NCBI RefSeq assembly: GCF_000189635.1
Contig: NW_002476433.1
Location: 310,001-374,000 of the forward strand
Source of the DNA: Tetrahymena thermophila SB210
Taxonomy: Eukaryota; Ciliophora; Oligohymenophorea; Hymenostomatida; Tetrahymenidae
Length of the DNA: 64,000 nt
Direction of reading: 5' to 3'
This document shows, in pieces, positions 30,331 to 59,472 of the stretch (position 1 is the first letter of the stretch; each line of letters opens with the position of its first letter). The notes under the pieces were generated by a model that was given only the letters and a program-made list of their open reading frames with translations, ran no database searches and was not told where the DNA came from. The position numbers were made by a program, and so were the translations under genes.

Positions 30331-31431
30331 ACCACAAAAAATTAATATTTTTTATTTTTTCACGTTTTGCATTAATTAATAATTATTTATTTTGGTTGGA
30401 TATTTTTCCACTAAAATCTATATTAAATTAACAATAAATTATATAATCCATCTATTATCTGAATAAGATACAAATAGTGGTAAATCAAACAAAAAGTAAT
30501 ATATTGATTATCCTCTAACTTACAATTAGGAATATATTAGTATTTTTAGTTATTAATTTCATGTTTTTTTTTCTATGAAATTACTTGGGCTTATAAGAAA
30601 ATAAAAACAACCTCAAGTTTAAAAAGTCTTCATATTAATTTAACAAAAAATTTAATATTTTTATTTATTTATTCATTCATTCATTTATTAAAAATAGGTA
30701 GATAAAAATGAGCATATTAAAAAATTGTTTAAATAATTTGGATTAATTTACAATTATCATTTAGATTTATTGATATTTCCTAAAATATTATATTAGTCAA
30801 TTATATTAAATTTAAATAAAAGAACTTCTTTAATAATTAAATATATTATTATGAAGTACTTAAGTATGATTTAATATGTGGATTATGTATAAATAAATAA
30901 CTATTATTAGTTTATTAATTATTAATTTTATAAAAGGATAATTAAGGAATAAATTTATACATTTAGTGATTATTTATTTTTGTAAGTAAAATATCAAATA
31001 TCAAATGGTATTAAAGATTTTTATTAAAATAAATAAGCATGGTTATTAATTTTTTTAAAAGGATTATCTAAGATAAGTAAGATAAGGAAATATGCATACA
31101 TATATTTATAAATATTTTTTAAATTAAAATTAAATACACATCATTGAAGTATAAGTTTTAATGTTGTATTTTTGCTATTTATTTTAGCTATTATTTTAAA
31201 TAAGAGTTTTTTTTAGGATTATTTATTTATTTATTAATTCCCTTATATTGACTATTCGTTTTAAAAATTGTTTTCAAATAAAATCTGAGATTTTATGATC
31301 AAAAAATTAGTTTTGTAAATTAAAAAGTATATTTTTTGTTCCTATATCTAAAAATAAAAAATTGTATTTATGATTTTTTACATCTTCTTCATAGCTCAAC
31401 CAAAATAAAATTATAAAAATTGAAGAACTCT
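30331..31431. other. AT-rich intergenic region
   Basis: Contains short TTATTTATTCATTCATTCAT tracts near 30660. No gene recognised. Confidence 0.6.
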
Positions 31432-32058
31432 TCAGTCTGATAATACTCCATATGATTTAATCAAGTATTGCTATATAGTATCAGTTGCGATTCCAAGTGA
31501 GTAGAGCAATATTAGGATGACTGTAAAACTAATTAATACTCCTTAAAGTAGAATATAGACAAGATTTATTAAGCTGAATTCATTATCACAATAATTTTTG
31601 AAATGATAAAAGTTAACAGATAGAATAGTTAATAAAATAAGTTCAGCTATTATTTAAATAAGTCGATACCCGCTAATAAATCTTTGCAAAGGTTTCCATG
31701 CTTCAATTTTATTGTGAGAGCTAGCATACCAAGCTATATTCATATATATGAATATTATAGTTGCAAAGGCAAAATGAAAAAATCCAATAAATTAATTAGT
31801 ATGAGATAAAACACTGCAAGTAGGTATGCTGATGCTAGATAAAAAAAGAAACACTCCTCCCCAAATTAAACTATAGAGACAAGATAATACTAATTCATAA
31901 GTATAAGAAGGCGGTTTATCTTAAATAATTTTTTCTCCATGATCTTTCATTGATTTCATGAACTGCTTTAGAAAAGCTTACTGTTTCTTACTTTCATCTT
32001 CCCCCTTAGGAGAAAAGTCACTTTCACTGCTTTCAACTTCAAATTTTCTTTTCTTCAT
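31432..32058 (-). CDS. Small four-span membrane protein, hypothetical
   Basis: Single uninterrupted frame of 208 codons from MKKRKFEVESSESDFSPKGE to TGA. The first 60 residues are charged and Ser-rich. Four hydrophobic segments follow: around YELVLSCLYSLIWGGVFLFL, IGFFHFAFATIIFIYMNIAW, LIQIIAELILLTILSVNFYH and LVYILLQGVLISFTVILILL, with short loops between (a polar CSVLSHTNQ loop after span 1 and YASSHNKIEAWKPLQR after span 2). The absence of introns and the regular spans support a real gene. I do not recognise the family; the four-span layout is shared by many unrelated protist proteins. Confidence 0.7.
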
Positions 32059-32961
32059 TTTTAAATTTTTACTATGCTCTCTACAGAGTAATCAAAAATA
32101 GTTTATTGTTTAGTAAAGGAGCTTCTTTTTAAGTATTGATATTATTATATACAAATAATTGAAAATATCAACAAAAGATTATTTATAAGATAAAAATTTT
32201 ATCTAAACAGCTTAGCTTTCTACCTCATAAAATAATGTATTATCTCTTACTTTAAACAATTTCTTTCTTAAAAGATAAGATAATATTTCTTGTAAAAATA
32301 TTTAATATTAATTGTAATAAATTAAAACATTAAAAAAAAATTAATTTTAAAGTAAATTATTTTTCTTGTAAATTTTATTTGCTTACATATAATAAATAAA
32401 ATTCCCTCTTTTTTACAAGCAGATTTAAAAATTATTGGTATTAAATTTGACTTATTTTAGTAAATAATTATTTTAAATATCATGAAAATGCATTTTGTTA
32501 TTTATAAATAAATAAAAATTTATTAATTTTTTATAATCATAAATTTAAATATTTAAATTTTTCTAAACAAATTTGGAAACTAATTTTTTAATAGTTAAAT
32601 TAAGTTAGAATATATTCATTATTGTTAAATTTGTTAAATTATTATTTATAATCAAAAAATTAATTTAATTTTAAGTTTTTTTTTGAAGAACTATTTTTTG
32701 TTCAAAATATTTTGTTTTTGCTTTTAAAATTTAAATTGAGTTATTCTAATATTATAAATTCCAATATTAACATAAATTAAAATTTAATCTTTTTACTAAA
32801 AGTAATTTAGTAATTGTTTTAAGTATTTTACTCTATTATATAATTCAAAAATTTAATGATTATTAAACAAACTTGGATTAGTTTTTAACTTTTCGTTAAG
32901 AATCAGTATTTAATTAATTAAAAAATAATTTAAAAATATCTTTTTTTATTTACATTTTTAT
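32059..32961. other. AT-rich divergent intergenic region
   Basis: Lies between the divergently transcribed four-span gene and the HisRS gene, so it should contain both promoters. No motif stands out from the A/T background. Confidence 0.55.
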
Positions 32962-35496
32962 ATGATTAAGAGTTTGTGTTTTAACTCATAAAATATCCTA
33001 CAATCAAACTCCGCTTTTACTCAAATGTAGAGATTTAGCTCTTTGCAATCTGTTAAGGGAATGAAGGATTTAGTTGGAAAGTAATAAATATTTATTACTT
33101 TTTCCATTTAAAAATTAAACTATTATAAAACTATAAAGTTAGCTTTTGAAGCATCGATTTATATTTGATTGCGGTGCTAAGGTAATGGAAAAGCATGGGT
33201 ACTAGATGATTGTTTAAAATATTTTAGAGCATAAATAAGTTTTCTCGAGAACTTTAGGAGATACATCTGAAATTATTAATAAAGTAAAAAAAACTTATGC
33301 TCTCTTATTTTAATTTAGTCAACTTTAAATATTCATTTTAAGATTTTTATGAGTATTTTCCTTTTTTTTATATTGTTTCTTAAAGTTGATAAATTTTGGT
33401 TGATTTAATAGATAATTCTAGTTAATTTTTTTGAAATCCATTAAGATTTTATGTTTTTTTATCTAACCAATTTATGATTCATTTTATAAAAGGAAATGTA
33501 TGGATTTACTGATTAGTCAGGTAAAGAACTTGTACTTAGACCAGAAGGTACTGCAAGTGTTGTACGTCATATTTTAGAAAATTCAAAGCACTTCGAATAG
33601 TAGCAGAAATATTATTATTACGGTCCTATGTATAGATATGAGCGCCCTCAACTAGGAAGGCAAAGATAATTTTACTAGCTAGGATGTGAATTTTTACATA
33701 AAGAGAATCCTAAAAATAGCTACTTAATAGATGCTGAGATCATTATAGTAGCTCATAAGTTTTTACAAAGGGTATTGGGCAAACATTCCGAATTTTAAAT
33801 GGAGATCAATACAATAGGAGATGTTGAAGACAGAGTAAAATACAATTCAATTTTAAAAGAATACTATGAAAAAAATATACACAAACTTTCTGAATTAAGT
33901 AAAATGCGCTTAGAAAGAAATAATCCTTTAAGAATATTTGATTCTAAGGAGGCATAAGATTAAGATTTAATAGCTAATGCTCCTTAATTTTCAGAAAGTA
34001 TGAAATAAGAAAGCAAAGAATACTTTAGAAATCTTTTAGAAGTACTAGATTCTCTTAATATTTCTTACAAGATAAATCCTTTACTAGTAAGAGGATTAGA
34101 TTATTACTCACACACTTGCTTTGAAATCAAAAATGTTGCTCAATAGGGTAAATCTTAAGACACAATCCTGGCAGGTGGCAGATACGATCATCTAGCATCA
34201 GTTCTTAACTCAAAGTATAATTAAATAAAATATTTTTAAATTTTAAATACATTTAATAAAAACCCAAATAAAATCATAGTAGAAAAAAAATTTAATTTGA
34301 AACAATTTAAGTAAATTTGTAAAAAATAATTAGAATTTATGATCAAAGTTATAAATAACATAAGATTTATTTTTTTAATATTTGCTACAAATACATAATA
34401 AATAAATGGTTGAAATAGCATTTCATTTATATATCAAATTTTTTAAAAATACAAACAGTTATTTTATTTACTATTAAATAAAATTTTATAAATTAGAAAC
34501 ATTAAATAATATTTCAAATAATTTTAAATGATTTAATCTAATTTAAATATTCATATTTTATTGTTAATGATTTTGGCTTTTATATGGTTTAAGATAAAAA
34601 AGATATGAAGATTTTATTTATCTATCTACATTAATTTTATTTAGGATGTTTTTTATTCTTCTACTAGCACTTTTTTTAGCTATAAGTTGAAATTATATAG
34701 AATTTATTTGGATTAACTATATATTCATTTTCTCCATCATTGCATATGTTGGATTCACCAACACTAGAGTATTTTTCCATCTATAGCATTATTTCGGTTT
34801 GCTATTAGATTTCTATTTATTACGACTATTTTAATACAAGATAGAGGAAAAATAGAACAAGTAGCAAATTCTCCTTCTTTATATAAGATATTTTGTTCAA
34901 TATATAATTGTTTTATGTTCACTTTGTTAAACCACATTTATACATTTTAAATTTTATTTTAAATTATAGAGCTACCAACTTAAACGGAGTAGGCTTTGCA
35001 TGTGGTATCGAAAGAATTGGCTTGCTCTTGCAAGACGATGATCCCAAGTTAAAAGAGTTTGAGAAGAAAAAGATTAAAATAGGAATTGTTCCTGTCCTAG
35101 GAAAATAAAATTTAAGTGATGAATTTGAAAGAAATCTCAAGCTATATTGCGTCAATTTAATGAATTCAATCTCTGATGATTAAATTGAAGTCTAACTTGT
35201 CCTTCATACATCTAAAATGGATAAGTAAATGGAATATTTATTGAAGGTAATTACTATTGATATATTATTGAAACTAATTATTGAAAGCAAAAATAGGTTT
35301 TAGTTTTTAAGATGAAGCTTATTTGAAATAGAATGATTTTAAATTTAACATTTTTTGTTTAAAATAGAATGAATTCAAATGGGGTATTTTCATTGGCGAA
35401 AATGAGGTGAAAGAAAAAAAAGTGAGCATAAAAAATTTATTAGATCGCGAAAGTTTTACTATTGAACGTGAGTAGATAAATAATTACCAATTTTGA
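32962..35496 (+). CDS. Histidyl-tRNA synthetase, bacterial type, probably mitochondrial
   Basis: Charges tRNA-His. Exons are about 32962-33080, 33139-33283, 33493-34214, 34970-35247 and 35290-35496. The order of motifs is that of HisRS: GMKDLVG and [20 protein letters not shown] (motif 1 region), [33 protein letters not shown] (motif 2), [15 protein letters not shown] (HisA), GGRYDHL (HisB), [10 protein letters not shown] (motif 3), then an anticodon-binding domain beginning [13 protein letters not shown]. The motif 2 sequence [18 protein letters not shown] resembles bacterial and organellar enzymes more than the cytosolic one. The N-terminus [19 protein letters not shown] lacks acidic residues and is suited to mitochondrial import. 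The third intron is unusually long (755 nt). Confidence 0.92.
34215..34969 (+). other. Long intron of the HisRS gene holding a TGA-free stretch
   Basis: Intron bounded by AA|GTATAA and TTATAG|AG, restoring the HisRS frame as [10 protein letters not shown]. Its last third (about 34692-34960) is less A/T-rich than other introns here and open in one plus frame, coding a hydrophobic peptide (for example [18 protein letters not shown]). There is a TGA just upstream at about 34687. It could be a relic of a nested or inserted membrane-protein gene, or chance. Confidence 0.4.
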
Positions 35497-35640
35497 ATAT
35501 AAAAATAAAAATATTATATAGTATTTTTAACAAGATCATACGAAATAATAATCAATTATATCTTTGTTTTATTCTGCCAAAAAATAATCTATAAAAGTAT
35601 TCATTTAGACCATTTTTGGAAGTGCTCACTCTTCTCGAAG

Positions 35641-35693
35641 GGTTAAATTTATATTTAAACTGTATGTTTGTGCGCCATAAAACAAATTTAACC
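35641..35693. repeat. Perfect 10-bp stem-loop between HisRS and the snoRNA region
   Basis: GGTTAAATTT (35641-35650) pairs exactly with AAATTTAACC (35684-35693) around a 33-nt loop containing TTTGTGCGCC. Immediately before it lies a small CTTCTCGAAG hairpin (35631-35640), and the whole stretch from 35610 is richer in G+C than its flanks. Candidate small structured RNA or the 5' region of the snoRNA host transcript. Confidence 0.45.
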
Positions 35694-36005
35694 TAATTTT
35701 CCTATAAAAATGCTCCTCCAACTTCATTTTTTATAATAATTAATAAAATAAACAAAATAAAAAAAAAAAAGTACAAAAAAAAACCTAAAATCTTAAAAAA
35801 GAAAATAAAGATTAGGATTTTTCTTTCGATCAACAAAGGAAAGCAAAAGGCCAATCTCAAATCCACATAAAAAGGTAAACAATTTGCACAAATTAATCCT
35901 CTTCTTTGAACTCTGCTATTACTTTGTGAAGAAATGTTCATACTATTAACTCTCCCCCACCTTCTTATATAAAGATTTTTATTCATTTCATTGTGAAGAA
36001 ATAAA

Positions 36006-36085
36006 AATATTCATGATGATATAAATATGGAATTACCGTCTGAATTTAGATTGATGGAAAAATTTTGCTAAACTGATAGAATATT
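36006..36085 (+). ncRNA. Box C/D snoRNA, SSU rRNA guide (snR77/SNORD65 type)
   Basis: A 7-bp terminal stem (AATATTC 36006-36012 with GAATATT 36079-36085) encloses C box ATGATGA (36013-36019), D' box CTGA (36040-36043), C' TGATGG (36052-36057) and D box CTGA (36073-36076). The 11 nt TGGAATTACCG (36028-36038) before D' are exactly complementary to the universal SSU segment CGGUAAUUCCA. The residue five before D' is A (36035), which pairs with the U of GGUAAUUCC; this is the site known as Um578 in yeast (snR77) and Um627 in human (SNORD65). Strong identification. Confidence 0.88.
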
Positions 36086-36538
36086 CAAACATTTCTCACA
36101 GTTAAATGACTGAAGAACGAACTGCTTCACTATTCTTTAGAATTAATTTCTTTACCTTCATTTTCTAATTATTTATTTTACCAAATATAGATTCGATGTA
36201 TTCTACTGAAATCACTTGAACCTTCTTCTAAGAAAACAATCAAGAATTAGTCTTCTTGGTTAAAAAAAATGATCAGAAAAACTTTAAAACTCTATCTTTA
36301 AGAGAACCTTCCTTACAAAGAAGAAATGCTTTTGATACTCCATACTAAGATCTATGAGAAAGGTACTTAAACAAATAATTTAATTTATAAGTCTTAGAGA
36401 ATATAGAGTGATGCTATATTAGAGTCATAAAGTATTATTTAGTATATCTTGTCGTGTATTTAATAAATGAATAAATAAATAAATTAAGTAGAACTTCTAC
36501 TTTTTTAAGATTATTTATTTATTAATTAACTCTTCAAC

Positions 36539-36603
36539 TGATGATAAATATTCCAGTTCTGCTGCTGAAAACAGCTTGAAGATAACTTTGCTTACCTTTC
36601 TGA
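36539..36603 (+). ncRNA. Box C/D snoRNA candidate with LSU-complementary D' guide
   Basis: C box TGATGA (36539-36544), D' CTGA (36564-36567), C' TGAAGA (36577-36582) and D CTGA (36600-36603) occur in order with normal spacing. The guide before D' contains CCAGTTCTGC, complementary to GCAGAACUGG, a conserved LSU rRNA segment as I recall it. No good terminal stem is visible, so the ends are set by the boxes alone. Confidence 0.65.
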
Positions 36604-36636
36604 CCTTATACACTTCAAAGACTACTATTAATAATT

Positions 36637-36681
36637 ATGATCCATCTCCTCTTTTTCTCTTTGATAATTCATTACGACTGA
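36637..36681 (+). ncRNA. Weak box C/D-like candidate
   Basis: A poor C box (ATGATCC) and a good D box (CTGA at 36678-36681) are flanked by an imperfect stem (TTAATAAT with ATTACTAA, one mismatch). No target recognised and no D'/C' pair. It may be a degenerate snoRNA or chance. Confidence 0.3.
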
Positions 36682-36866
36682 TTACTAATATTTTATTCAT
36701 TATTAAAAGGAAATAAATCTATCAACTAGAGGTATTCTCATATGGTCTTAAATGATAATGAAAGGACTAATGATTGATAATCAATCTGATACTCTCCCAT
36801 AATATTAAGGTAAAAAATTATTTTTAGTATTCATCAGCTTGTTTAGTGATTGATAAATGATCAATA

Positions 36867-36937
36867 ATTCTTTTATGATGATTTAACAACGCTCGTATGA
36901 TTATGATTACATTTAACTGCAAGCTGAACAAAGAAAA
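36867..36937 (+). ncRNA. Box C/D snoRNA candidate
   Basis: C box ATGATGA (36875-36881) and D box CTGA (36924-36927) are flanked by a short stem formed by TTCTTT and AAAGAA. The 13-nt element before D (ATTTAACTGCAAG) would be the guide; I do not recognise its target. A donor-like GT lies 57 nt upstream at 36810. Confidence 0.6.
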
Positions 36938-37110
36938 GCCATCATATCAATCAATAAACGACTATGATGATTAAAAATTAACTTGTTAATAGCCTTAACT
37001 AATTTTATTTATTATTAAAAAGGTAAAAACTCTATTCTCTTTTAAGAAAGACAATAAAAGATAAGATAATTGCTACTCTAAAATAAAATCAGTAGAATTT
37101 AATTATTAAA

Positions 37111-37250
37111 ATTATAACGGATCGCTATGAAGATACGATGACGAGAATGACGGTTTTCTTCGATTTGGGTACCAAAGTTCTTTTGGTATTTGATGAGAAG
37201 CGACCTCAACGTGATTCTAAATGAGGCATTTGACAGAGCACCGTTATAAT
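37111..37250 (+). ncRNA. 140-nt structured RNA with a 10-bp terminal stem, atypical C/D-like
   Basis: ATTATAACGG (37111-37120) pairs exactly with CCGTTATAAT (37241-37250). Just inside are a C-like box ATGAAGA (37127-37133) and a D-like TTGA (37230-37233); an internal TGATGA lies at 37191-37196. Two internal hairpins are evident: TACCAAA with TTTGGTA (about 37170-37189) and CCTCA with TGAGG (about 37204-37226). It is much richer in G+C than its surroundings and sits 88 nt after a donor-like GT at 37023. Length and box divergence recall longer processing snoRNAs such as U8 or U22, but I cannot match it to any of them. Confidence 0.7.
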
Positions 37251-37494
37251 AATATATTTGTTTAAATATTATTTCTACTGCCTTCTATTTTAGAGATCAG
37301 CTTATCTATCTTTTTTTCTACCTTTTTTCTATTAATATTTGCTCAGACTTTTTTCTAAACTAACTTAGATTAAATCTGATATGGTTTCTCAGAACTTTCA
37401 ATCTTATTTGATATATCTTTCTTCTTCATAAAGGTACTTGATTACTTTTCATTTCTTGTTAAGCTTTCCCATTTTCTTGGATTTGTGTTTTTTC

Positions 37495-37557
37495 TGATGA
37501 CTGATATAGCCGCCCCAGTAATATGCCTCCAGGCGTTGATTATAGGCTTGGTTCTGA
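37495..37557 (+). ncRNA. Box C/D snoRNA candidate, 61 nt after a donor site
   Basis: C box TGATGA (37495-37500) and D box CTGA (37554-37557) flank 53 nt that are rich in G+C for this region (GCCGCCCC, GCCTCCAGGC). A TTGATTA at 37535 may be C'. The guide before D would be TATAGGCTTGGTT. No clear terminal stem and no target recognised. Confidence 0.6.
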
Positions 37558-37738
37558 TAAATTAATAATACAAATTCAATGGAAATGAAGCTTAAAGATA
37601 TTTAACCAATAAAAATGCTAACTTTTAATTTATTAAATAGGTATTTAATTAATGACTTTTCCCAATATGACATAATCAGTAAACAGCACACTTCTCATAA
37701 AAGAATATATATAATTGAAAGATATATTTATTTGATGA

Positions 37739-37832
37739 GATTGAATATAGTTGATGACAATCATATTTGCTACTCTTGACTCGAAAGGGGTTGATGATTA
37801 TACCACCAAGATCTCTGAAAAAATATTCAATC
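37739..37832 (+). ncRNA. Double-guide box C/D snoRNA for adjacent LSU rRNA sites
   Basis: A perfect 10-bp terminal stem (GATTGAATAT 37739-37748 with ATATTCAATC 37823-37832) encloses C TGATGA (37752-37757), D' TTGA (37776-37779), C' TGATGA (37792-37797) and D CTGA (37815-37818). Before D, TACCACCAAGATCT (37801-37814) is complementary over 14 nt to LSU AGAUCUUGGUGGUA. Before D', ATATTTGCTACT (37763-37774) is complementary over 12 nt to LSU AGUAGCAAAUAU. These two targets are adjacent and overlap by one base in the universally conserved LSU sequence. By the fifth-nucleotide rule the sites would be the C of GAUCUUGG and the A of GUAGCAAA. Confidence 0.9.
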
Positions 37833-38084
37833 TCTAATTAATCAAATATCATATCTAACTTTGATGATGAAGTTGCTGTTTATTGAAGCAATCTATCTAC
37901 TAAAAGATTTTTGCTAATATTAATTTTTAATATTATTAAAGAAATTGCATGATTTTGGATTTGCTCAGCCAACATTCAAAAAATATGAAGATAAAAAAAA
38001 ATCTGTGATTAATAATTAATAGACCCATAATCAATTAAATAAGGTAAATAATATCTTTAACTTAAATAAAAACAAATAATAATT

Positions 38085-38184
38085 AATTAATGATCTAAAT
38101 TATTATGATGAGAAACTTCTAGTCTCCTGAACTAAACTGAAGAAGAAAATTTTCGCTCCTATCTGACATAATAGATCATTAATT
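38085..38184 (+). ncRNA. Box C/D snoRNA with 13-bp terminal stem
   Basis: AATTAATGATCTA (38085-38097) pairs exactly with TAGATCATTAATT (38172-38184). Inside are C ATGATGA (38105-38111), D' CTGA (38127-38130), C' TGAAGA (38138-38143) and D CTGA (38163-38166). The D guide TTTTCGCTCCTAT matches the conserved LSU segment AUAGGGGCGAAAG with two G-U pairs. The D' guide (ACTTCTAGTCTC) has no target I recognise. A donor-like GT lies 41 nt upstream at 38044. Confidence 0.85.
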
Positions 38185-38456
38185 TTTTATTTTATATAAA
38201 ATTTTTTAATTTTAAATAAAAAATTAAAACAAATTCTAATTTATTCTCGATTATAAAAAAGGTATATATTTCACTTTCTTGAAACTTCATTCATTCTCAG
38301 ATGCAGGGTGAGTAGCAGTTATGTATGACTTAAGATCTTCCTTCTTGTTGCTGTTTGTGATATTCACAAATCAATCATTTGATGGTTTGTTTAATGAATC
38401 TATTGTTTGATGGATAATTATTCATTCATTGATTGATCAATTTAGTGCGACTTTAA

Positions 38457-38525
38457 ATGATGTTTTTAGTGTGTAATCTCTCTCATTAGATCCTCGGATC
38501 TATGTAGAAAATTTATCCTTACTGA
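38457..38525 (+). ncRNA. Weak box C/D-like candidate
   Basis: ATGATG (38457-38462) and CTGA (38522-38525) are correctly spaced, with an internal hairpin AGATCC/GGATCT (about 38488-38501). No terminal stem or target seen. It lies about 195 nt after the donor-like GT at 38262, further than the other members of the series. Confidence 0.35.
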
Positions 38526-38822
38526 CTTGTCCTACTAATCCAATTAAAGCTTGAAAAAAACTATCTACCAACCAATAAATTGATTTTTTTACTATCATCT
38601 GATTGATTATAATAGCTAATATATTAATGAAGATCAGTCAGCTTAATTCTGCTCACTCTGCTTAGATCTCAGTTGTTTATAATGTACTTATTTTGGTTTA
38701 ATTATAAGATAGTTGACTCGAACATCTCATTGGATTAGTTGCTTGTTAGTTTACTTCATCTTTAAACTTTAATTTGTAAGAAATTGTTTTCTTTTAAAAT
38801 ACTTATACTATATAAAAAAAAA

Positions 38823-38916
38823 ATTGATTTTCACAAACTGATGAATATATTTGACTAGAGTTTCTGATCTTTATGATTACATAACCCTTAGCTGCCTGAA
38901 CATTGTGAAAATCAAT
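38823..38916 (+). ncRNA. Box C/D snoRNA with 14-bp terminal stem
   Basis: ATTGATTTTCACAA (38823-38836) pairs exactly with TTGTGAAAATCAAT (38903-38916). Boxes are C TGATGA (38839-38844), D' CTGA (38864-38867), C' TGAT (about 38874) and D CTGA (38896-38899). The D' guide contains GACTAGAGT, complementary to the conserved LSU segment ACUCUAGUC. The D guide ACATAACCCTTAGCTGC has no target I can name. The perfect long stem makes this a confident RNA call. Confidence 0.86.
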
Positions 38917-39023
38917 ATTTTAATATATCAATTTTTACTAAATCGAAATTAATTGTAATTCTTTAAAAAAATAGATAAATGATAGTAAACTTGAGTAATT
39001 TTTCTCTTGTAGCACTAAAGAAA

Positions 39024-39065
39024 ACTCAAAAACTCTCTTTTTGACTGAATATTTCTAATAAGAAG
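39024..39065 (+). other. Candidate short exon of the snoRNA host gene
   Basis: Bounded by CTTGTAG| at its left and AAGAAG|GTACTT at its right. It contains a TGA (in TTTGACTGAATA) and codes for nothing recognisable, consistent with a noncoding host exon between the snoRNAs at 38823 and 39114. Confidence 0.45.
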
Positions 39066-39113
39066 GTACTTTCTTAATTTATCTTTTAAATCTCATCTCA
39101 GAAAAAGTATTCC

Positions 39114-39201
39114 TTTTATGATAATATGATGATCATGACTGACACCTCTTGAGCGAGCCTTCGGGCATTGATCTTAACCAGTCCCTGATTCAATCATAAA
39201 A
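39114..39201 (+). ncRNA. Box C/D snoRNA with 9-bp terminal stem
   Basis: TTTTATGAT (39114-39122) pairs exactly with ATCATAAAA (39193-39201). C box ATGATGA (39126-39132) and D box CTGA (39185-39188) lie just inside. A small AGCC-TTCG-GGC hairpin sits near 39157-39166. The D guide GATCTTAACCAGTCC has no target I recognise with confidence. It starts 48 nt after the donor-like GT at 39066. Confidence 0.8.
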
Positions 39202-39262
39202 AGAAATACTATAATAAAGATGAAACTATTATATTTAAAGCATTTTCTCATTCTTATTTTAA

Positions 39263-39779
39263 TCAAAATAGATTTATCTTATTGACAAAACTAAAACGAA
39301 GAAAGCATACACACCAAATAATAACCATATCATTCAAATAATAATTAATAAACACTAAAAAATTCAAAATTAAATATAATTCTAATTTAATATAAAAACT
39401 ATCACTAAATGAATTAGTATTTATTTATATTCCATAAATTTTGTGAAATTTTAATTAAAATTTGATGAAATCAAGTAATTTAATATTTCAAGCTTTGATA
39501 TATTTATATATATAATAATAAAATAATTTAATTATGTTAGATTAAATTTTGAAGCTAACAACTATTTTAATCAAATTAGTTTAAGTAATTATTTTGATTG
39601 AATTATTTAAATTTATAAATTATGAATTTAGTCTATTTATCCGTTTGCACAAAAAATAATACTTATATTTATTAAATATTGATTTTTGATATATTTCTGT
39701 GAATATTATTATAAGTAGCAGTATTGAAATTATTTATTAAATTAATTATCTTTAAAAGAATATATAAAAATACTTAATA
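39263..39779. other. AT-rich intergenic region
   Basis: Between the last snoRNA and the coiled-coil gene. Nothing recognised. Confidence 0.6.
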
Positions 39780-42700
39780 ATGAGTAAATTTGACAATGAT
39801 TATTAAAATATTAAAAATGATATACTAAGAGAAATTAACTAATCACAGTTTTAATAAAGATAGTAAGTTATAATAATAGAATTTTACATAAAGAATTAAC
39901 AAATTTTTAATTTCAAACATGTTTTCTGATTATATTAAATTATTTTATGTAGAGAGATATTGAAATTATAGTAGATGATTATAGATAGAGAAGATAAATC
40001 AAAGGAAATGGAGTTAAAAGTAATTAAAATATATATGTTAATGGATTCTAATTTCTATAAATTAAAATAAAATGAGGAATTTAAGATATTTTACTATTTT
40101 TAAAACAGGTAAATTCATTTGATAATAAAATGGTCAGTCTAAAGAATTTGCTAATGTCAGAATTAAGTCATACAAAAGAAAATTTATTATAAGAACCTAA
40201 GAAAATTATGAGAGACTTTGAGATAAACGTTAAGCATATTTATGATATGAAATTTAAGTCATTAGAAGCTTAGTTTATTGGAATTATGGATGAGCAATCC
40301 AAATTAAATAGACTGACTCAACTAGATTAAACTAAGAGGTAGGAAGAAATATAAGATTATTACAGTAAATTGGAAAGGTTTGTATAATAAAACTAAGATA
40401 AATTGGATCATAAACTTGGCACTACTATTTAAGATATCTTAGCAAAATTCAATAAAATGGAGGATACATTCCTTGAGCTTTTCAAGTAGAAAGAAAAGTT
40501 GTTTGAAAGAATGAATCTAGGATATGAGCACCTATTTTCAAATTAAGAAATAATAGAATCAACTATCAAAAAAATAATCTATACTTTAGATAGAAAAGCA
40601 GATAATCTATCAGTTAGGACATATCTAAAAAGTATTTTTATTTTGAATTTCCATAAAATCAAAACAAAAAAATTATTTTAAGTAAAATTCGTGATTATAA
40701 AAATTTTACTTTAAAACAAAAAGATATTAAAATTGATCTTGATACTAAATTCGAAGATTTTCAAAATAGCTTAGCTTTTCCTAGAGGAATAATTACGAAT
40801 GGAACTTATTTACAAGATAAAACAAATTAATCAGCTGTTTTAGAGAATTTAAATACAATTAATATTAGTGAATTAAAACCATCTGAATCTGATAATTAAT
40901 TGAATAAAATAATTTATAAAATTAACCAATAAAATTTAACTATAAAAAATATCAAAGAAAATTATCATGAACATGAAAAAAGGATTGATCATTTAGAGGA
41001 AATAACTATGAATTTAAAACTAATGGATTAAAATTCTTAAGTTAATTAATTACTAAATTTAAAATAAAGAGTTCCTGTTTTACATAGTGATGAATACCAC
41101 ATTAATCAAACTCCTAATAATTAAAAAGGCAAATTCTAATCTTTTAACCATAGTCCTTAGATTGATAATAGCTACTATTAGAACATTCCAACAGATTCAA
41201 AAAGCATTCATTAAAAATCAGATATAAAAGACAGAGATTAATTTTCTTAAAATAAATAAGGAAATTCGATACTAAATGAAATCTTTGGTAAAAAAAATGG
41301 TGATAACAGAGATTCAAAATCTAACCAAATAAATAAAAGTGACCATTCTAGAAATTTAATAGTAAAAACATAGATTTTTGTTTAAATTAAATAATTTTCC
41401 TAAATTTATGAATATTTAAATACTGACAAATGTTTGCTTAAAAATACATAATTACTTTTCTTAAATTTTTAATTACTAATATGTTTTTTTTGAATAATTT
41501 ATATATACAAATAGTATGAAGCCTTTGATCAAACTGTATCTCCTTAATAAAATAAGCTGGATCATTAAAAAAATAAAAATGAATAAATTTAAAATAATTT
41601 ACGTCAAAATAATTTCATGTAAGCACCTTCTAGCGAAACAATAGAAAAAAATGAAAAGCTACCATAAGTAAGATTTATTAAATATCTATTTAAATATTGA
41701 ATATAATTTTAGTAACTTGAATAAGATGAAGGAGAGTAAATTGATTTTGCAAAAAGCAAGTTGAACAATCAAAATGAGAGTTTAGAAAAATTAAAGCTAG
41801 TTAAATCTGTGGCATAAGATAGAATGACATCTACAAACGTCCAAAATAGAATGAGATTAAACTTCGATTAAAAATAGAAGCTTAAATCAAAAGAAGAAAG
41901 CTAAAACAAAACTAAGAAAGAAGATAGTGACATTCTTAAAGAAGCTTAACCTCTTGATTAAGGTTTTATTGATGTAGGAGAAGATTTCTTAACTAACTCA
42001 TTGAAAAAATCTTTAGGCAATAAAGATAATGATACATAAAAATCAAATAACTAAAACAAAAGACCTTAACTGTAGATAGAAGAAGTAGAATAAATGTCTT
42101 ATAAAAATAAAAATAACAATCAAAATATAAAACAAACTGTTTCCCCTCCGCCAGAGGAAGACCAAGAGGAACTAATTACAGGTGGAGGAATTAGAAACTT
42201 ACTTAATAAATCTAAAAATAGAAATGAAAGTAAAGATGATTCTCCAATAAAAAATTCATAATATAACAAAAAAAATGTAAGCAACTTTAGCAACTTAAAT
42301 GAAATAGACCTATTAAATTAAGAATATAAAAACTAATTTAATTAGTCAAACATAGGTTCTAAGAGTTCATCTCTTGATAATAAATTCAATTAAAACAAAG
42401 TCAATTACTAAACCATGCAAAATAATAGCAATTTATATAGACAAGGAGAATATTATGATTAGCCTAACTCTTAAATATTTGAAAATCCTTTAGACAAAAG
42501 AAATCCACTTTTAAAGAAGCAAGGTAATTTTTATTTTATTTCAAAACTTTATTATTTAAATTTATAATTAAAGGAGAGATGAGCAATAGCAGTATTATGA
42601 GAGGAAATAAGTCTAACTTATCCAATAAATAAAATGATGTAAGTATTATTATTTAAAATAAAAGATACATCTAAATTTGTTTTATTAATTAAGCTACCAC

Positions 42701-43073
42701 CATTAAACATAAAAAGTACAAAGGAAATCAATAAATCAAAAGGTATATAATAGATTATTATGTAATATTAAATTGTTTTTACTTTAAAAAAGTTCTTCCT
42801 TAGAGAAACTAACTGAATAAAGGATTAAATTAACAAGGTAATTTGAACAACAAATTTGGAAACTAATACTAAAATAGAGGGCCTGTAGATTAAAATAACT
42901 AATATTATGAAGAAGATGAAGAAGTAGTATATTAAATAGATGAAGATGGCTTCTTAATGGATGAAGCAGGTGAGTATTTAAGGGATGAATAAGGTAATTT
43001 TATTAGATTAACTCCTGATTAATTAGATAATTTAAGAGACTAAAACCTTGTTGTAGAGGAAGAGTATTACTGA
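39780..43073 (+). CDS. Large coiled-coil, Asn/Gln-rich protein, hypothetical
   Basis: Starts MSKFDNDYQNIKNDILREIN. Two early introns (about 39853-39955 and 40020-40108) are followed by a long exon with heptad-like coiled-coil segments (for example NSFDNKMVSLKNLLMSELSH and EEIQDYYSKLERFVQQNQDK). A further intron near 40640-40720 precedes a second helical part and a low-complexity region rich in Asn, Gln, Ser and Lys. Introns near 41370-41515, 41670-41710, 42524-42573, 42638-42692 and 42742-42790 interrupt it. A proline/acid patch (SPPPEEDQEELITGGGIRNL) lies near 42140. The C-terminus has a repeated acidic phrase (DEDGFLMDEAGEYLRDEQGN, then FIRLTPDQ) and ends VVEEEYY before TGA. I recognise no enzyme domain; a structural or scaffold role is a guess. 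Confidence 0.65.
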
Positions 43074-43882
43074 TTTAAAAATAAAATATCATACTAATTA
43101 ATTAATTAATTTAACTTAATATATACAACTTTATATCAATTTTATTTATATGTAACTTATTTGTTTTATAGAAAAAGTATAGTTTTAAATAGCAAATTCT
43201 TTTTAACTCTAATTTTATTTTTGCTTATTTATTTGTTTTTTAGTTTACTGCTGCTATTTTTACTCAATTAATTCAAGATTAAAATTTGTAATTAAAACAT
43301 TAAATAATATTCTAATTAAATAAATAAATAAATAAATTCGAAATAAAGAAATTTTCTTTTTGTCAAAGTTAAAAATTTATTTTATTTAACTAAATTCACA
43401 AAAATTGCGATTCATAAATAGTTAAAATGACTTAAATTTAATATCTTTCTCATATTTACAATCATTATCTATCAATTAATTTTTATTTTTACTAAAAAGT
43501 GAATTATTTTACTTTTTTTATATCTTAAATTTGCATTAAATTAAGTTAAAATAAAGTTCTTGAAAGGTTTAAAATTTTAAATTTATCACAATAAAAAGTT
43601 TAAATCTTAAAAAAAAATGTGATGAAAATTAAAGATTAAATGTATTTTTAATAAATTTAAAATTTACAAATAAAATTTCTACATAAACTATTTAAAATAT
43701 AATGATTAAACTATTTTTGAATTTATAAAATCAAGCCTCAATGTAAAATTTTACATATCCTTAGTCTTTTTTCATCCAATAACTTTATTACTTTAATAAA
43801 ATTAATTGATCTTTATTTATTAATTTGCCAAATTATTTTTTTGTAATTTAGTTAGTGCAAACTAAATTTTTTTATTATACTT
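43074..43882. other. AT-rich convergent intergenic region
   Basis: Lies between the 3' ends of the coiled-coil gene and the FBXO9-like gene. It contains an AAATAAATAAATAAATAAA run near 43320. No gene seen. Confidence 0.6.
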
Positions 43883-45712
43883 TCAAAGGGACATTTTCTT
43901 GTATATTTGAAATTAGGGATCAGTTAAGTCAATACGAAGCTCTTCTAATGGCTTGTATCTGAACACTTTTGAGGAATCTTCTGGTTTGGCTTTGTATAAA
44001 GAATAGTTATGATTTAAAGGTATTTCAAGCATAGAATAGTTGGCTACTATCAAAAGATTATGTGCACCATAAGAACTGCTTGCAATTTTCATGTCATACT
44101 AGAATACAGTTGTAGAAGAATTAAATCTGACATAAACATAATCTTCTTTTAAAACAAATTCACCATAATTTTATTACTTATCTTAAAGATTAGCTAACAT
44201 ATTGCCATTATTATTTAATTAGTTCATTTCATATTATTCAGCTAGGTAGTAATCTTAACTTAAACTTTTAATAATAGCATCTTTTTTTAGTTTTTTATTT
44301 GAAAGTAAAAAGAACATTCTACCATCTGGAAGGAATCTGAAATACCTGTAATATGTTATCTCAATTAAAGGAGTAATAGTATGATGCAAATCCTTTTCTC
44401 CGATTTTGGTGTATCTTTCTTTACATATATAATATCCTCCAAAGTGGATACGAGGAGCCTCCATAAACATTGTATAATAATTATTGAATTTTTGATAGAA
44501 TTTAGCACTAGTTTTGTAAAGAAGATGCACAGGTTTGTCAGAATTATAGCAGTTCCATGCAACTTTACGCACATCTTGATTTACCCTTAATCTTAGCTCA
44601 GGAGAATAGTTATAAGGATGCTCATTCATAATATCTTATATAGAATTGAAAGCTGTTTACAATGGAAGAGAAGGTACTTCCTTGTACAAAGCTACACAAA
44701 ACTTTTTAAATATTTGCTTATTCTTTGTTGTGATCAGCTATCTAAATTTTTTGCATGCAAATGAAAATTTAAATAAAGAATAGCAGTCAAGGTAATCAGC
44801 AATATCTAAAATAAAGTGATCAGGTACTTTTGTAATTATTCCTGGCTCAATAGTCTTTTATTCTATTTATTCCTGAATCTTTTTTTTCAATTCCTCTTCT
44901 CTCTTTGCTTCCTCTTCTTTCTCTGCTTTCTCAAGTTGCTCCAGTTCATTCTATTTCAAAAGTAATTTATTTTTTATTGAAAATATTATCTTTAAATTTT
45001 TTTTTAATTATTTTAAAATTGAGAGTTAAAAACAAATTATATTTAAGACTTCAATAATAAATGAGCTACACTTTTATATTTTTGAAACAATAACAATTTC
45101 TTGAAGTTATTCTATTGAAAATAATCCAATAAAAATATTTGATATAAAAAATAAATATCAAATTTAAATTTTAAATTATGATGAATTTACTGATTTTATT
45201 TTCTATTTTTAAAAACTTTGTTTAGTATTTATTAAATTAGAAAATGTGTAAAGTAGTAGAATCAAGAAAATTTATTACAATGACAAAATAATAATAAAGA
45301 AATGTAATTCTTATTTTTTTCTAGATTCTTTCTAATTATTTTTTGGATAAGATGAAGAAACTAGAAAGAATATTTGAAGTTAATAAGATTGAAATGAAAA
45401 AAGAAAAGTCAAAATCCTAATTTGTATTTTTTAAATATATTTTACTTTGAAATTAGATAGAATGCTTTCTATATGCTACCAAGCAGATTTAGGAAAACTC
45501 ACCATATCTTTTAAGAGCTTTTTAATACGCACCTTTTTAGTATGTTCAATAACTAATTATGTTTTTAGCGCATTAAATTCGCAAAATTCATAAATTAGCC
45601 AGAGCTCATGCTTTGGTATGTCTAATGTTTGCTCTTAAATTTGTTTAAATTTTTTCTTAATACCAAGTGATTCTTCCTTAGCTAAGACTTATTCAATTTA
45701 TCTCTTTTCCAT
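43883..45712 (-). CDS. FBXO9-like F-box protein
   Basis: Probable substrate receptor of an SCF ubiquitin ligase. The N-terminal exon (MEKRQIEQVLAKEESLGIKK) is charged. A long intron (about 45540-44960) follows; the 5' site is ambiguous. The next exon has a coiled, Glu/Lys-rich segment, then an F-box (ITKVPDHFILDIADYLDCYS, LFKFSFACKKFR). The C-terminal half matches the FBXO9/Hrt3 family: YTMFMEAPRIHFGGYYICKE, ITYYRYFRFLPDGRMFFLLS, a middle FVLKEDYVYVRF, and a closing beta strand run SLYKAKPEDSSKVFRYKPLE. It ends at TGA at 43883; a TAA at DP|QFQ is read as Gln. The TPR-like N-terminus of animal FBXO9 was not seen. Confidence 0.8.
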
Positions 45713-59399: not shown

Positions 59400-59472
59400 T
59401 GATTCCTCCGAGGTTTGAACTCGGGACCTTCAGTGTGTTAGACTGACGTGATAACCACTACACTAAGGAATC
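59400..59472 (-). tRNA. tRNA-Val (anticodon AAC)
   Basis: On the minus strand the 7-bp acceptor stem GATTCCT/AGGAATC is perfect, followed by a discriminator A at 59400. The D arm holds AGTGGTTATCAC, the anticodon stem TCAGT/ACTGA closes the loop CTAACAC (anticodon AAC, valine), and the T arm CCGAG-TTCAAAC-CTCGG is perfect. CCA is not encoded and there is no intron, as is normal in eukaryotes. Confidence 0.97.

Follow-up and report, generated by a model that had tools for sequence, protein, structure and literature searches.

Within a stretch of 64,000 nucleotides (nt) of the ciliate Tetrahymena thermophila SB210 (NCBI RefSeq assembly GCF_000189635.1, contig NW_002476433.1, positions 310,001 to 374,000 of the forward strand; the whole stretch is called here the window, and positions are counted from its first letter), ten box C/D small nucleolar RNAs (snoRNAs) lie together on the plus strand, from 36010 to 39190, in a cluster of about 3.3-3.4 kb. 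The pattern of this cluster is real and beyond chance, and its best reading, which we hold to be quite probable on the letters of the DNA, is a non-coding, spliced host gene of the UHG type with about one snoRNA per intron. The snoRNAs would probably be excised from the introns of such a gene because nine of the ten stand after a donor-like AG/GTA site (the slash marks the predicted cut) and the locus carries no coding signal.

The members of the cluster, all on the plus strand, are as follows:
36010-36117, TtnuCD7 C/D snoRNA (RF02284, 134.9 bits, cutoff 90)
36533-36606, CD8 C/D snoRNA (Rfam match 36545-36603; RF02285, 78.9 bits, cutoff 70)
36874-36928, TtnuCD9 C/D snoRNA (RF02286, 79.1 bits, cutoff 70)
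37124-37240, TtnuCD10 C/D snoRNA (RF02287, 130.5 bits, cutoff 85)
37486-37559, TtnuCD11 C/D snoRNA (RF02288, 99.5 bits, cutoff 70)
37746-37822, SNORD24-family C/D snoRNA (RF00069, 47.2 bits, cutoff 41)
38106-38168, TtnuCD13 C/D snoRNA (RF02289, 91.7 bits, cutoff 75)
38453-38525, TtnuCD14 C/D snoRNA (RF02290, 98 bits, cutoff 75)
38839-38899, TtnuCD15 C/D snoRNA (RF02291, 79.5 bits, cutoff 75)
39133-39190, TtnuCD16 C/D snoRNA (RF02292, 83.4 bits, cutoff 75)

The original prediction, made from the letters of the window, had counted six such RNAs and at least three more, all on the plus strand, and had proposed the Rfam C/D models as a check; when these were run, the class and the strand stood and the number became ten, every match being at or above its gathering score and thus a member of a curated box C/D family. 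Nine of the matches are TtnuCD families that follow one another along the locus in numerical order, CD7 to CD11 and then CD13 to CD16 (RF02284-RF02292), and the SNORD24 match occupies the slot of the absent CD12, a place in the numbering from which we infer that this RNA is CD12. The ten RNAs are therefore already known, since all of them match catalogued families, and the author of the numbering probably had the cluster in view, because the family numbers run consecutively along it. The claim that the arrangement is new for Tetrahymena is weakened accordingly, and also by the UHG-like hosts outside vertebrates that PMC2780460 reports for Neurospora. In the literature searched no description of the locus as a host gene was found, the key Tetrahymena paper lying outside that search, so that this is no proof of absence from print; a 2024 review (PMC11028025) has a figure about where snoRNAs are located, and T. 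thermophila appears in it.

Some details of the set can be added. A second Rfam family, RF00476, matches at the place of CD8 (50.3 bits, cutoff 45), and an inverted repeat lies just upstream of it, at 36460-36529, where the cluster matches itself on the opposite strand (77% over about 64 bases). A TGATGA word at 39126, directly before the Rfam match of CD16, is likely to be the box C of that RNA; those at 36964, 37733 and 37862-37865, outside the Rfam matches, fall within or close to stem arms, of CD9 and of the SNORD24-like RNA, and were left out of the snoRNA count. The cluster is single copy in the genome, other matches being short (35-68 bases).

The first line of evidence for splicing is the recurrence of donor-like sites in the spacers that precede the snoRNAs. 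AGGTA occurs on the plus strand in nine of the ten spacers (10 sites), against two of ten on the minus strand, and AAGGTA in eight of ten on the plus strand; in 2000 dinucleotide shuffles AGGTA was found in a mean of 0.77 spacers, with a maximum of 7, and none equalled the observed count of either word. Elsewhere in this genome, over 179 kb, AGGTA has a background frequency of 0.71 per kb per strand, from which 2.3 would be expected in 3.3 kb. The longer word AAGGTACTT has three copies in the cluster, against 0.011 per kb per strand elsewhere, and another copy upstream of CD6. Under a donor model built on 26 coding introns, AG/GTA is the best donor of its spacer in eight of ten cases (CD7, 9, 10, 11, the SNORD24-like RNA, 13, 14 and 16). 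The splice model is that of our own gene finder, trained on this genome with 26 strict or 39 loose introns; a first run with 116 introns was dropped as too loose. Seven of the donor positions, on the plus strand, are given here, three others being listed further on as joint sites:
35875-35880, first donor-like AAG/GTAAAC, with AGGTA, before CD7, best of its spacer
36363-36368, donor-like AAG/GTACTT before CD8, second-best of its spacer
36810-36815, donor-like AAG/GTAAAA before CD9, best of its spacer
37434-37439, donor-like AAG/GTACTT before CD11, best of its spacer
38044-38049, donor-like AAG/GTAAAT before CD13, best of its spacer
38684-38689, weak and uncertain donor candidate AAT/GTACTT before CD15 (alternative TTT/GTAAGA at 38776)
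39066-39071, donor-like AAG/GTACTT before CD16, best of its spacer (score 4.1, the next 4.0)

The six AAG/GTA sites named at the outset (36363, 37023, 37434, 38044, 38262 and 39066) were all exact, in a list that left out 35875 and 36810, also AAG/GTA, and 37641, a TAG/GTATTT. The statement that most RNAs begin 40-100 nt after such a site is only just true, because the distance is 52-101 nt in five of nine cases and 105-191 nt in the other four.

A scan of the genome for AAGGTA-N-TGATGA-N-CTGA gave 97 matches against 23 in a reversed control, many of the 97 looking by eye like coding sequence; four fell in the cluster and two in the locus of CD31. A first C/D pattern had given 49 against 33 in its control, and eight places scanned from it yielded one named snoRNA, CD31.

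If each snoRNA had a promoter of its own and were transcribed alone, as is reported for CD32 and CD33, a promoter element of the small nuclear RNA (snRNA) type should recur along the locus. Such an element is present at 16 of the 17 independent U2, U3 and snoRNA genes that were tested: ACCATAA or CCCATAA stands 60-66 nt before the RNA in all 13 copies of U3 (4) and U2 (9; seven at G000:C329:199766-209036, two at C3:47902-48695), and AACCCATAA about 104-125 nt upstream of CD22, CD32 and CD33, three of four other snoRNA genes, CD18 having none. PMC6315972 places such upstream elements 98 and 118 bp before TtnuCD32 and CD33. No [AC]CCATAA was found within 200 nt upstream of eight of the ten cluster snoRNAs. 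What speaks for separate transcription is CCCATAAT, promoter-like, located 78 nt upstream of CD9 and 82 nt upstream of CD13; these copies, at 36796 and 38024, lie 14-20 nt upstream of the AG/GTA of the same two RNAs and resemble the snRNA promoter core. Outside the cluster this 8-mer is uncommon (0.006 per kb per strand), which leaves the two copies without an explanation. With the element lacking at the other eight, individual promoters are very improbable.

The second line of evidence concerns the flanks of the snoRNAs. The pairing of 60-base flanks, expressed as a z score against dinucleotide-shuffled flanks, lies between -3.0 and -6.1 in nine of the ten (CD7 -3.0, CD9 -5.6, CD10 -6.1, CD11 -5.0, SNORD24-like RNA -3.5, CD13 -3.2, CD14 -4.1, CD15 -5.0, CD16 -3.5), CD8 having no clear external stem (z -1.5). 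Against 6000 random placements matched for guanine-cytosine (GC) content, six of ten stand at or below 0.5% and eight of ten at or below 2%; if GC content is left unmatched, the stems of CD13, CD15 and CD16 are less exceptional, at 8.5%, 2.9% and 5.5% of the placements. Near the boxes, six of ten have external stems with uninterrupted runs of 9-14 Watson-Crick pairs (12 bp in the SNORD24-like RNA, 13 bp in CD13, 14 bp in CD15); five of the six are longer than the 99th percentile for shuffled flanks, and that of CD16 is equal to it. Box positions are off by a few bases at most for CD5, CD22, CD31, CD32 and CD33 in the flank-pairing run, and for CD11 and CD16 in the uninterrupted-stem run. The promoter-driven CD22, CD32 and CD33 have no flank pairing (z +0.2 to +1.3; CD18, which lacks the element, -1.2), and this difference from the cluster is a new element of the present analysis. 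Such a stem could join boxes C and D, could shorten the intron for the spliceosome, or could be a cutting site. This last would suit another reading, in which a single long precursor would be processed without splicing, for instance through cleavage of the external stems by an RNase III-like enzyme, and then trimmed to ten snoRNAs; long pairing around most of them, nine of ten with z -3 or lower, speaks for such a polycistron, but this reading leaves the AG/GTA before nine of the ten unexplained, and CD7 and CD8 have ordinary stems. We regard it as unlikely.

AG/GTA sites also occur at two other loci, those of CD5/CD6 and of CD31, where they likewise precede C/D RNAs. Beside TtnuCD31 lie two further C/D-like RNAs (at about 1457-1523 and 1146-1211 on the minus strand of L006, within G000:C17:2039769-2040217), each preceded by AG/GTA and enclosed by a long external stem (z -5.8 and -5.2), for which there is no Rfam match at E 0.05 or better, and which are possibly uncatalogued snoRNAs. 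Together with CD5 and CD31 their flank z ranges from -5.0 to -6.2.

That the host would be non-coding, as had been claimed, is upheld by several measures. The gene finder called no coding exon on the plus strand from 34413 to 39975 and none on the minus strand from 31000 to 43883, a silence which alone is no proof, because it also overlooked the end of the HisRS gene, which, to judge from open frames, may reach 35496. The best frame scores in the cluster (7.6 on the plus strand, 7.7 on the minus) fall short of 10.2, the lower quartile for 78 strand-windows 3.5 kb long (median 25.5). When the predicted exons are joined, their three frames give -3.5 to -3.9 per 100 nt, compared with +4.6 for the HisRS exon; negative in every frame and with no exon called, they are like those of a UHG/GAS5-type host. 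Their limits are one choice of several, the first start (35780) and the last end (39345) being arbitrary.

The neighbours offer a further alternative, in which the snoRNA introns would belong to the untranslated part of a plus-strand gene, either the leader of the one that begins near 39780-39975, which has no Pfam match above cut-off, or the trailer of the HisRS gene (Pfam), which ends upstream near 35496. Both are on the same strand as the cluster and a few hundred bases from it, but no tie between either gene and the cluster was found, and we consider this quite unlikely. Farther off, a tRNA-Val with anticodon AAC lies at 59400-59472 on the minus strand.

Returning to a host gene with its own exons, these would measure 51-172 nt in several spacers. 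Coding introns of this genome end in AAG (12 of 26), TAG (10) or CAG (4), and the candidate sites and exons, all on the plus strand, would be:
36191-36362, predicted exon of 172 nt, the best acceptor after CD7 ending at 36190
36710-36809, predicted exon of 100 nt, the best acceptor after CD8 ending at 36709
37021-37028, joint-site candidate AAG/GTAAAA between CD9 and CD10, top-ranked acceptor after CD9 and top-ranked donor before CD10
37369-37433, possible exon of 65 nt, the acceptor at 37368 ranking sixth and the AG at 37433 first after CD10
37639-37646, joint-site candidate TAG/GTATTT between CD11 and the SNORD24-like RNA, top-ranked acceptor after CD11 and top-ranked donor of the following spacer
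37942-38043, predicted exon of 102 nt, the best acceptor of the spacer ending at 37941
38260-38267, joint-site candidate AAG/GTATAT between CD13 and CD14, best donor and second-best acceptor after CD13
38633-38683, putative exon before CD15 as used in the joined-exon scoring, its acceptor ranking third
39013-39065, predicted exon of 53 nt, the second-best acceptor after CD15 ending at 39012 (best 38974)
39229-39271, candidate last acceptors, with AG ends at 39240 (best score) and 39271

Compared with the limits of 35990 to 39262 first proposed, the unit probably begins earlier, with the donor at 35875, and ends later, with 39240 and 39271 as candidates for the last acceptor.

Exons of zero length are possible at 37022, 37640 and 38261, since the AG of the next AG/GTA ranks first or second as acceptor; the 87 nt before the last of these joint sites (38260-38267) contain no other AG. 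In such back-to-back introns the AG/GTA at 37022/37023, 37640/37641 and 38261/38262 would serve as acceptor and then as donor with no exon between, the paired flanks would join the intron ends, and serial recursive splicing would free the snoRNAs, an arrangement that we put forward as doubtful. For 11 AG/GTA sites (8 of the cluster, 3 of the CD31 and CD6 loci) the acceptor scores are intermediate between those of generic sites and those of coding acceptors (p 0.026 against 253 AGGTA; p 0.005 against 11 exon-end AGs; p 0.0009 against 39 true coding acceptors, a comparison that is partly circular, as are the scores of the model's own acceptors), and two of the eight cluster sites, 36362 and 39065, score as ordinary exon ends; these intermediate scores are no more than suggestive of joint use. 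CTAAY or TTAAC occurs within 42 nt of 7 of 12 AG/GTA sites, a count to which no weight is given because coding introns have no such enrichment.

Several observations weigh against a spliced host. The acceptor model is weak and acceptors are poorly defined; no clear exon can be drawn at three junctions; and the tails of coding introns of at least 50 nt (38 or 39, loose set) yielded no conspicuous branch-point motif. The spacer of CD15 has no AG/GTA and only weak donor candidates, with scores of 1.8 and 2.3, and the cluster donors do not score above other genomic AGGTA (p 0.86), so that the case for donors rests on their number and placement. The stems of CD7 (18%) and CD8 (59%) are ordinary among GC-matched placements, CD6 has no flank pairing (z +0.4), and the two CCCATAAT copies noted above belong here as well. 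Of the host first proposed, non-coding and with one snoRNA per intron, the calculations support the box C/D RNAs, their common strand, the donor-like sites and the non-coding character, and leave CD15 short of a good donor and three junctions short of a clear exon.

With these points counted, we infer the following for the favoured spliced host, as regards splicing, exon limits, the role of the stems, trimming and guide targets. The transcript would start upstream of 35875 and end after about 39240-39271, would encode no protein and would be spliced; nearly each intron would hold one box C/D snoRNA, in most cases at the tip of an external stem built from the intron's own flanks; after splicing the intron would be opened and trimmed to the mature snoRNA, and this would guide 2'-O-methylation; small RNAs of this class usually direct the modification of ribosomal RNA. 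No ribosomal DNA for the matching of guides was found in this assembly when a small-subunit word and the 5.8S family were searched. If the splicing is true, the non-coding host with one snoRNA per intron reaches the ciliates, far from animals and fungi, and this bears on whether the design had a single old origin or arose repeatedly. AG/GTA sites with mostly long external stems, against an upstream element and no pairing, would also give a simple sequence rule for two routes of biogenesis in one cell.

Recursive splice sites, or ratcheting points, occur in long introns, as in Drosophila; the cluster is like them in that an acceptor-like AG and a donor GTA are juxtaposed, and unlike them in that its candidates would part successive snoRNA introns. 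UHG and GAS5 are non-coding snoRNA host genes and relatives of the proposed design. The Rfam families TtnuCD7-11, 13-16 and SNORD24 are the same RNAs as those of the cluster, and Rfam is silent on their host arrangement. TtnuCD32 and CD33, driven by an upstream element according to PMC6315972, share organism and RNA class with the cluster; in them the promoter element is present and the flanks do not pair, a combination that is mostly reversed in the cluster. In Neurospora, according to PMC2780460, 45 of 55 C/D snoRNAs lie within introns, the hosts being coding or non-coding, and five C/D clusters are UHG-like. Like these and like UHG/GAS5, the Tetrahymena cluster has several C/D snoRNAs, a donor-like site before nearly each, and no coding signal; unlike them, it has long external stems and exons that are short or locally undefinable, and its splicing is a prediction.

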